From assembly GCA_021371795.1 (NCBI GenBank), contig JAJFVK010000008.1, positions 62,001 through 126,000 of the forward strand: a DNA stretch of 64,000 nucleotides, in the 5' to 3' direction. Positions 25,702-36,152 of this stretch are shown here, piece by piece; position 1 is the stretch's first letter, and each line of letters begins with the position of its first letter. The notes beneath the pieces were generated by a model. That model was not told where the DNA came from, made no database searches, and saw nothing but the letters and a program-made list of their open reading frames with translations. Both the position numbers and the translations under genes were made by a program. The DNA comes from Planctomycetaceae bacterium (GTDB lineage: Bacteria; Planctomycetota; Phycisphaerae; Sedimentisphaerales; UBA12454).

Positions 25702-25726
25702 AAACGACTCCTGACACCGTTTTTCA
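25702..25726. repeat. Degenerate REP-like element (ACTCCTGACACCG)
   Basis: ACGACTCCTGACACCGTTTTT matches the ACTCCTGGCACCGTTTT core found beside the transposase gene at 28030, with one change. It overlaps the stop codon of the neighbouring membrane-protein gene. Confidence 0.65.
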
Positions 25727-33991: not shown

Positions 33992-34139
33992 TCTTTTGCT
34001 CCTGTGATTATTAATATTACGCTTAACACTTCTCTTCGCCAATTCTGCCGATATTTTAGTCCCGTGATATTAAATGCTTTGAGATTTTTTGGCAATAGAA
34101 ATGTCGTTCTAATACCGGCCGGCAGCATAATATCAGCGC

Positions 34140-34245
34140 AAAAAAAGAGGCAGACGCCTAGGAGGAGTGGTAGTCTGCCTTATTGAGAAAAACAATATTG
34201 TTTTCCACCACTGTTTGTACGTAACGAACCCCTGAAAGGGTTCAT
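34140..34245 (-). ncRNA. Candidate small RNA A with CUCCUCC loop and terminator
   Basis: On the minus strand, about 106 nucleotides that would fold as three hairpins. GAACCC/GGGTTC comes first (34243-34226), then AAAACAAT/ATTGTTTT (34204-34189), and then GGCAGAC/GTCTGCC (34179-34149), whose loop contains CCACTCCTCCTAGG, followed by a T7 tract (34146-34140). The last is a good intrinsic terminator. A weak promoter (TTGCGC, 18 bases, TATAAA at 34256-34251) lies upstream, its -35 inside the tail of the neighbouring element. The CUCCUCC loop could pair with Shine-Dalgarno sequences. No ORF of note lies within it. Confidence 0.45.
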
Positions 34246-34278
34246 TAAATTTTATATAAAATCTTAAAAGAAGAGCGC

Positions 34279-34356
34279 AAAAAAAATGGCAGGCGGCCGA
34301 GGAGAGAAACCGCCATGCCGTGTGCGCCTCCTAAAGAGGAGGAGGTACGTGTGGGT
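34279..34356 (-). ncRNA. Candidate small RNA B with anti-Shine-Dalgarno loops and terminator
   Basis: On the minus strand, about 78 nucleotides. The 5' part has ACCTCCTCCT, with CCTCCT folding on AGGAGG around CTTT. The 3' hairpin pairs GGCAnGGCGG with CCGCCTGCC (34319-34288), its loop reads TTTCTCTCCTCGG, and a T8 tract follows (34286-34279). A promoter TTGACG (34391-34386), 18 bases, TATTTT (34367-34362) would start transcription near 34356. The tail (T-tract then GCGC) and the C/U-rich loop repeat those of RNA A, so the two look like tandem relatives. The C/U-rich loops recall anti-SD trans-acting sRNAs. Confidence 0.55.
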
Positions 34357-34361
34357 ATCCT

Positions 34362-34391
34362 AAAATAACATTACTACCTACTATACGTCAA
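34362..34391 (-). promoter_or_regulatory. Promoter for candidate small RNA B
   Basis: Minus-strand TTGACG (34391-34386), 18-base spacer, TATTTT (34367-34362). No ORF follows on this strand before the terminator at 34319-34279, which supports an RNA product. Confidence 0.5.
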
Positions 34392-34685: not shown

Positions 34686-36152
34686 ATGACTGCGAGTATT
34701 GTTCTTCTATCAGTTTTTCTACTGGGTATGGTGGCTATCGGTATATGGGGGATGAAAAAGACGGCAACTCTTAACGATTTTTTTCTTGGCGGCAGGTCGG
34801 TTGGGCCGTGGATGACGGCGTTTGCCTATGGCACAACTTACTTCAGCGCAGTTATTTTTATTGGTTTTGCCGGAAAAATTGGCTGGGGTTTCGGTCTCAA
34901 AGGTCTGGCTATCGCAATCGGCAACGCGTTTATCGGAACAACTTTGGCCTGGTTGGTTCTCGCCAGAAGGGCAAGAAGAATGACGCAGAATCTCGACGCG
35001 ATGACAATGCCGGAGTTTTTGCAGGAAAGATTCGGCAGCAAATACATAAAAATGTTCGCCGCTCTGATAATTTTTGTTTTCCTGATTCCATATTCGGCTT
35101 CAGTTTTCAAAGGGCTGGGTTATTTATTCGAGAAAAATTTTAATATTCAATTCGATACCGCACTTTTAATTATGGTTGCGATTACCGGTTTGTATCTCGT
35201 TCTCGGCGGATATTTCGCGGTAACGCTGACCGATTTCGTGCAGGGTATTATAATGCTTTTCGGCGCTACTATAATGGTGATTCTGCTCTCTAATAAAGCG
35301 GCGGAAATTTCCGGCACAGGCGCGTTTACCGCGGCAACGGACAGATACAATCAATGGCTAAGCACAGTGCCGCCCGAAAAACAGCCGAGTATGTTCGCTT
35401 TGGGTGCGCTTGTATTTATGACATCGTTCGGCGTTTGGGGTATGCCGCAGATGGTTCAGAAATTCTACGCAATCAAAAATGAACAAGTGATAAACAAGGC
35501 AGCGTTGATTACAACGATTTTCGCGGTAATCATTTCTTTCGTCGCATATTACACCGGCGCGTTAGCTCACGTTTTCTACGATAAGCCGCCGATGGGAGCC
35601 AACGGCCCTGACTTCGACAGAATTATTCCGGAACTGCTGACGAGCTATCTACCAAGCGGATTGATGGCGGTTATACTGCTGCTGATTCTTTCTGCGTCGA
35701 TGAGTACGCTTTCGTCGCTGGTGCTTGTCTCGGCGTCCGCCGTCGCGATTGACCTTTACAAGGGACACGTCAATCCGAATATATCAAAAAAGAATTCGCT
35801 GCTTATGATGAGATTTTTGAGTGCGGTGTTTATCGCGATTTCATATTATGTCGCCCGGCATCAGCTTGCGTTTATTGTTGAACTGATGGCGCTTTCGTGG
35901 GGTGCGGTGGCAGGTGCGTTTATGGCCCCGTTCTTTTATGGACTATATTGGAAACGCGCAACGCATGCAAGCGTGGTTGTTGGAATGATTACAGCTATCG
36001 CGATAAATACGATTTTATACTATCAGTATGGTCCGAAGAATTCTCCAATTGCTGCGAGCATCGCAATGATTGTACCGTTCATTATAATACCGGTGGTTAG
36101 CGCTTTCACAAAACCGCCAAAGAACGCGATTATCGAAAAAGCATTTGCATAA
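34686..36152 (+). CDS. Sodium:solute symporter (SSF family)
   Basis: 488 residues with about 13 membrane helices. SSF features include the early DFFLGGRSVGPWMTAFAYG segment, YFSAVIFIGFAG, ARRMTQNLDAMTMPEFLQER, and SASMSTLSSLVLVSASAVA in the sodium-binding region of helix 8. The substrate (sugar, amino or organic acid, proline) cannot be told from sequence alone. The start is firmly fixed by AAGGAGG. The gene is monocistronic, with a terminator after it. Confidence 0.9.
   Translation: MTASIVLLSVFLLGMVAIGIWGMKKTATLNDFFLGGRSVGPWMTAFAYGTTYFSAVIFIGFAGKIGWGFGLKGLAIAIGNAFIGTTLAWLVLARRARRMTQNLDAMTMPEFLQERFGSKYIKMFAALIIFVFLIPYSASVFKGLGYLFEKNFNIQFDTALLIMVAITGLYLVLGGYFAVTLTDFVQGIIMLFGATIMVILLSNKAAEISGTGAFTAATDRYNQWLSTVPPEKQPSMFALGALVFMTSFGVWGMPQMVQKFYAIKNEQVINKAALITTIFAVIISFVAYYTGALAHVFYDKPPMGANGPDFDRIIPELLTSYLPSGLMAVILLLILSASMSTLSSLVLVSASAVAIDLYKGHVNPNISKKNSLLMMRFLSAVFIAISYYVARHQLAFIVELMALSWGAVAGAFMAPFFYGLYWKRATHASVVVGMITAIAINTILYYQYGPKNSPIAASIAMIVPFIIIPVVSAFTKPPKNAIIEKAFA

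Follow-up and report, generated by a model that had tools for sequence, protein, structure and literature searches.

Two small RNAs predicted on the minus strand of a planctomycete genome, unit B (34356-34279) and unit A (~34207-34140), very probably represent genuine regulatory RNAs from a hitherto undescribed family, and we favor, with a probability of roughly 0.6, the interpretation that they are co-located and act in trans, with loops that would block the Shine-Dalgarno (SD) sequences of mRNAs. All coordinates refer to the window, the whole stretch of 64,000 nucleotides that was analysed. The initial annotation had described two minus-strand units here, each with a hairpin and a T-tract followed by GCGC, and both were present at the positions given; its interpretation of the pair is supported by the sequence comparisons reported below, except that the idea of a duplication is borne out only in part: A and B have the same layout, a 5' hairpin and a terminator with an anti-SD loop, yet beyond the loop and the terminator/GCGC ends they show little sequence that can be aligned. 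The two units are 140 bp apart, each carries a GC-rich hairpin plus a T-tract at its 3' end, and the GCGC 3' of the T-tract is common to both. The features are as follows.

34686 to 36152, plus strand: divergent sodium:solute symporter gene (Pfam SSF, 6.8e-60), a candidate target
34386 to 34391, minus strand: −35-like TTGACG of B; CTTGACGTA retained in 10 of 12 genomes, gone in L008 and L012
34362 to 34367, minus strand: −10-like TATTTT of B, spacer 18; TTATTTTAG conserved in most close relatives
34279 to 34356, minus strand: unit B, predicted small RNA of ~78 nt (core conservation, fold z, covariance model)
34327 to 34345, minus strand: hairpin 1 of B, CCUCCU(CCU)CUUUAGGAGG, an anti-SD arm and an SD-like arm with two possible registers
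34318 to 34326, minus strand: linker of B; CACACGG (34324-34318) invariant, the diverged loci L014 and L058 included
34288 to 34319, minus strand: hairpin 2 of B, terminator stem with an anti-SD loop; loop region UUUCUCUCCUC at 34309-34299
34279 to 34286, minus strand: T-tract of B (T8)
34275 to 34278, minus strand: GCGC past the T-tract of B, retained in 10 of 12 relatives; the GCGC of the linker is its complement
34187 to 34205, minus strand: 5' hairpin of A, GAAAACAA..UUGUUUUUC, weak and AU; many relatives have a hairpin of different sequence at the same place
34148 to 34180, minus strand: hairpin of A, terminator stem with the anti-SD loop CACUCCUCCUA
34140 to 34147, minus strand: T-tract of A, then GCGC at 34136-34139, partly conserved behind A

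B, whose predicted start is 34356 and whose T8 ends at 34279, reads (A)CCCACACGUACCUCCUCCUCUUUAGGAGGCGCACACGGCAUGGCGGUUUCUCUCCUCGGCCGCCUGCCAUUUUUUUU and folds into two hairpins at −27.7 kcal/mol (z −4.17 vs shuffles), the second of which is a GC-rich terminator stem with one bulge. In hairpin 1, CCUCCU pairs with AGGAGG in either register. Unit A (fold z −4.39 vs shuffles) ends in the terminator hairpin GGCAGAC...GUCUGCC with the loop CCACUCCUCCUAGG, followed by the T-tract. Of the anti-SD loops claimed in the initial annotation, that of A (CCACTCCTCCTAGG) and that of the B terminator (TTTCTCTCCTC) were found as loops, but the B sequence ACCTCCTCCT turned out to be the 5' stem arm of hairpin 1, paired with AGGAGG. 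The TTGACG-N18-TATTTT promoter proposed for B is present and conserved in most relatives, although the box alone occurs at chance level (17 found, 14 expected), so that the promoter is supported by conservation of the box across relatives and not by its count. For A, no clear promoter was seen within the window, and its relatives show only a CGTAT-like box. Within the window, GCGC after a T-tract had no significance as a general terminator feature. The GCGC behind the B T-tract and the GCGC of the linker may form a third helix, or their complementarity may be due to chance; in L014 and L058 the linker has UUCA and the hairpin is followed by UGAA, but the pattern is broken by L005 and L012.

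By DNA search, B was found in 12 of the 13 genomes of family f1 and was absent from all 46 genomes that represented the order's other families. The 66-nt core of B was identical in 11 of the 12 genomes, while the flanks were 45-60% identical and the promoter region was intermediate. Since the PheT proteins of the same B-bearing genomes share only 55-81% identity with the PheT of the window, B is frozen at the RNA level. A covariance model of B, applied to 298 genomes of the class, gave matches only in family f1 and in one relative in family f7, and when 85,000 species genomes were scanned with a pattern, 13 loci were found, all in planctomycete MAGs (mostly Phycisphaerae/Sedimentisphaerales where named). 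One of these loci is L058, the relative in family f7, and another two, L062 and L064, are contig ends that overlap and belong to a single genome. Collections of viral contigs, phage and plasmids contained nothing, and in 392 genomes of the phylum the matches to GGTTNCTCTCCTCGNCC besides the window's own were chance or coding, without the B fold. A second, diverged copy of B (L014, G007:C20:977-1059) lies just downstream of a gene for an HU-type DNA-binding protein and is possibly a 3'UTR copy. L058 (G034, family f7; JAQTMR010000018) has a rebuilt stem, with double changes in 4 of the 11 pairs of hairpin 2 and 0 broken in that sequence, but retains the loop GGUUUCUCUCCUCGGCC and the linker CACACGG; its hairpin is without a T-tract. 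L058 is surrounded by small uncharacterised ORFs, an HNH endonuclease and a 1308-aa protein that fits no family convincingly, a setting that looks like mobile DNA. With the compensatory change at these 4 pairs, 98.5% of the cells in hairpin 2 of B were paired, a value reached by 0 of 500 shuffles.

Covariation across relatives, which the initial annotation had suggested looking for, was thus clear in B, and it was also clear in A, which sits downstream of B in all 12 of the B-bearing f1 genomes. The A loop CCUCCU was invariant in 11 of 11 sequences, while compensatory changes were seen in 8 of the 12 stem pairs. In the A stem, 90.8% of the cells were paired compared to 81.3% in shuffles (0 of 500 reaching the observed value), and partners that had been slid reached at most 61%. 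The model of A was built on a smaller alignment, based on sequence, that gave the same answer; alignment A7 was fitted to the model and hence leans towards structure, unlike A4. A MAFFT alignment (A2) had misplaced the 3' arm of A, and its RNAalifold result is superseded by A4 and A7. In L011, which lies outside the 11-sequence A alignment, the identical CCUCCU loop is closed by a stem of unrelated sequence (CCGCCCGUCAG/CUGACGGGCGG). In G004, an extra terminator hairpin (L082, G004:C66:23479-23523) with CCTCCTCC in its loop and an unrelated stem was also observed, and it is a possible third unit of that genome.

The terminators, the promoter and the retained G-U pairs all lie on the minus strand, which places the RNA on that strand. 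The reading of the hairpins as mere terminators of plus-strand transcripts, which the initial annotation had itself named as a possible refutation, is excluded by the same T-tracts, conserved promoter and G-U pairs. It is also most improbable that a plus-strand copy is the functional one, with its loops AGGAGGAG and GAGGAGAG titrating CsrA through GGA in the manner of CsrB/RsmZ: the genome does have a CsrA gene and the plus-strand hairpin loops do contain GGA motifs, but the loop GGA is confined to the plus strand whereas the T-tracts follow the hairpins, and the promoter points, on the minus strand. In addition, the two G-U pairs of B were kept in nearly all sequences, and A showed 7 G-U cells vs 4 A-C cells, A-C being the wobble form expected for a plus-strand RNA.

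The neighborhood of the pair is variable. Upstream of B lies the divergent symporter in the closest relatives of the window and other genes elsewhere, and beyond A lies mostly pheT, convergent with the pair, or sometimes a symporter or another gene. Such variability speaks against the view that the units are plain terminators of a single gene, and also against a leader; since pheT, the usual next gene past A, is convergent, the pair is not a leader, and since the gene beyond A varies and pheT is on the opposite strand, there is no fixed cis target. That A and B simply terminate pheT or some other gene of the minus strand, as ordinary intrinsic terminators with loops that are C-rich by accident, is therefore improbable, even though both would make good intrinsic terminators and pheT lies upstream on the minus strand in this genome: the pair persists as the neighbors change, pheT is convergent with it in most relatives, and the loops are conserved above the stems. 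Moreover, A and B were the only GC-rich terminators with CTCCT in the loop among the own-genome CTCCT-N8-24-T6 sites that were fetched and folded, which sets the pair above chance, and other matches to model R2 in these genomes were mostly plain terminators with unrelated loops. When R2 was applied to 248 genomes of the class, the matches outside the family were likewise ordinary terminators, without a CCUCC loop. The pattern CTCCT-N8-24-T6, counted across the whole genome of 2.85 Mb, gave 63 matches, fewer than the 73 of the reversed-pattern control. Downstream of pheT in the order's other families, no hairpin resembling A was found, a weak negative given that the filter also missed some known A units.

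An ORF in B, which the initial annotation had denied, does exist: an AGGAGG-N10-ATG opens the frame MAVSLLGRLPFFLR..., which runs through the terminator. The ATG behind the AGGAGG is probably non-coding, and the possibility that B is a leader or dual-function RNA for this peptide, whose SD would be the AGGAGG that CCUCCU sequesters, is very slight. In 12 of 12 close relatives the frame stays open as far as the T-tract's end or close to it, and the GCGC past the T-tract, which would give LR, is kept in 10 of 12. Nevertheless, the ATG is missing in L014 and L058 although the RNA structure is kept there, the changes in L011 alter the peptide (S to A, G to D) with no synonymous changes in the others, and the C-termini are unrelated, with stops mostly past the terminator.

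In the mechanism that we favor, each RNA would be closed by its own intrinsic terminator and would present an anti-SD sequence in its loop, (U)CCUCCU in A and CUCUCCUC in B, with a second anti-SD copy, CCUCCUCCU, in hairpin 1 of B. By pairing with the SD of those mRNAs in which it is a strong AGGAGG, the loop would block binding of the 30S subunit and so lower translation; in A the loop alone would matter, with the stem as a scaffold, whereas the whole molecule would be constrained in B. The 16S tail CCTCCTTT / GGATCACCTCCTTT is present in the genome. Among the 52 long ORFs of the window, whose starts are uncurated, 25 have an SD-like 4-mer or longer, 9 have a 5-mer or longer, and only one, the divergent symporter, has the full AGGAGG. 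Since strong SDs are a minority, an anti-SD seed could be selective. The 5' segment of B was predicted to form a duplex with the symporter leader across the SD and the start codon at −18.8 kcal/mol (unconstrained, without a background set), and the SD varies among the symporter orthologues (AAGGAGG, AAGGAGA, UGGAGG); for these two reasons, we regard the symporter only as a candidate target. Because AGGAGG-N3-10-ATG occurs 59 times genome-wide compared to 43 times for the reversed control, a seed of 6-7 nt alone gives no target list. A Pfam search gave no match for Hfq in the genome, which is compatible with an Hfq-independent anti-SD sRNA such as NfeR1 (PMC10746234). If the proposed mechanism is true, this linked pair, with B frozen and the A stem drifting around a fixed CCUCCU loop, would show that anti-SD sRNAs arise in very distant phyla; and with no detectable Hfq and strong SDs at a minority of starts, selectivity by SD strength would be directly testable here.

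Several observations count against the favored mechanism: the window shows no recognisable promoter for A, the CCUCCU arm of B is sequestered by AGGAGG in hairpin 1, the short seed alone yields no target list, the hairpin of L058 lacks a T-tract, and the freezing of all of B, linker included, exceeds the needs of SD pairing. It is conceivable, though unlikely, that B is instead a structured RNA whose main partner is the ribosome, as a mimic of the 16S tail, or a protein holding the CACACGG linker, so that SD pairing would be secondary in B and A alone would pair with mRNA. The constraint on the whole molecule, linker and both arms included, fits such a role, as do the retention of CACACGG even in L014 and L058 and the resemblance of the 5' arm of B to the 16S tail CCUCCUUU. 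On the other hand, both hairpins of B contain anti-SD sequence, the terminator loop was kept as the stem changed, as would be the case for a pairing loop, and the linkage to A suggests a role in common. Slightly more doubtful is a version in which B, rather than a plain SD-pairing sRNA, is a near-invariant structured RNA that imitates the 16S 3' tail and has ribosomes or a dedicated protein as its partner; A would be its loop-only sibling, in bacteria with no detectable Hfq, and the pairing of GCGC with the linker would serve as a readthrough or 3'-end structure.

In the library searched, we found no paper on any trans-acting sRNA family in planctomycetes. An Rfam search over the window at gathering level matched one tRNA and nothing else, and nothing convincing was obtained for A or B at gathering or relaxed thresholds. 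The comparability to C-rich-loop sRNAs of other phyla, as originally claimed, holds for the anatomy (NfeR1/alpha-r14, LhrC), while A and B failed as members of these families. The alphaproteobacterial alpha-r14/NfeR1 and 'cuckoo' RNAs and the Rhodobacter CcsR1-4 keep an ultraconserved CCUCCUCC-type anti-SD motif unpaired (PMC10746234, PMC10253847); in NfeR1/alpha-r14 RNAs, CCUCCUCCC is displayed by three hairpins whose stems vary, and these RNAs silence mRNAs independently of Hfq by occluding the SD (PMC10746234). A and B resemble this group in that the anti-SD motif is unpaired in hairpins while the stems vary, and in CcsR several copies also occur together. However, the host is a planctomycete and not a proteobacterium, the A and B loops read (U)CCUCCU or CUCUCCUC and never CCUCCUCCC, and the two units have separate terminators, whereas NfeR1 is one RNA with three hairpins and CcsR is a co-transcribed mRNA-sRNA operon. 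The alpha-r14/cuckoo Rfam models gave no match at the cut-off, with a weak suhB/mmgR match at 14 bits (E 2.3). In the multicopy Listeria LhrC1-5, a CU-rich motif lies in loop A, the linker and the terminator loop, and binding of the terminator loop to the SD region of lapB mRNA has been demonstrated (PMC4132741). The likeness to LhrC1-5, and to C-rich sRNAs of the RsaE and FsrA type, is the repeated CU-rich motif, terminator loop included; the LhrC motif is CUCCC/UCCC in Firmicutes, the A and B loops contain no CUCCC, and neither a sequence relation to A or B nor an Rfam match was detected. Window A also aligned at full length to the atoC RNA of delta-proteobacteria (RF01733), with a 5' hairpin and a CCUCCU-loop terminator-like hairpin, but the score was 20 bits vs a cut-off of 50 (E 0.35), the match was not found in A orthologues at E ≤1, and the atoC RNA is annotated as cis-regulatory, unlike the proposed trans role of A; A was thus rejected as an atoC RNA.

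Two further sequence elements were observed. On the plus strand of L062 (G010), a terminator hairpin with the stem GCCGACC and a loop containing TTTGCGCCACTTAGGAGG is followed by T8 and GCGC; this SD-like loop, complementary to the seeds of A and B, could be a sponge or a chance occurrence. Within the window, AACGGTGCCAGGAGTC occurs in four copies within 2 mismatches (0.01 expected), at 25706 (−), 27972 (−), 28698 (−) and 28800 (+), and its core (CTCCTGGCACCG / CTCCTGACACCG with a T-run) is also found elsewhere in the genome as a dispersed repeat.
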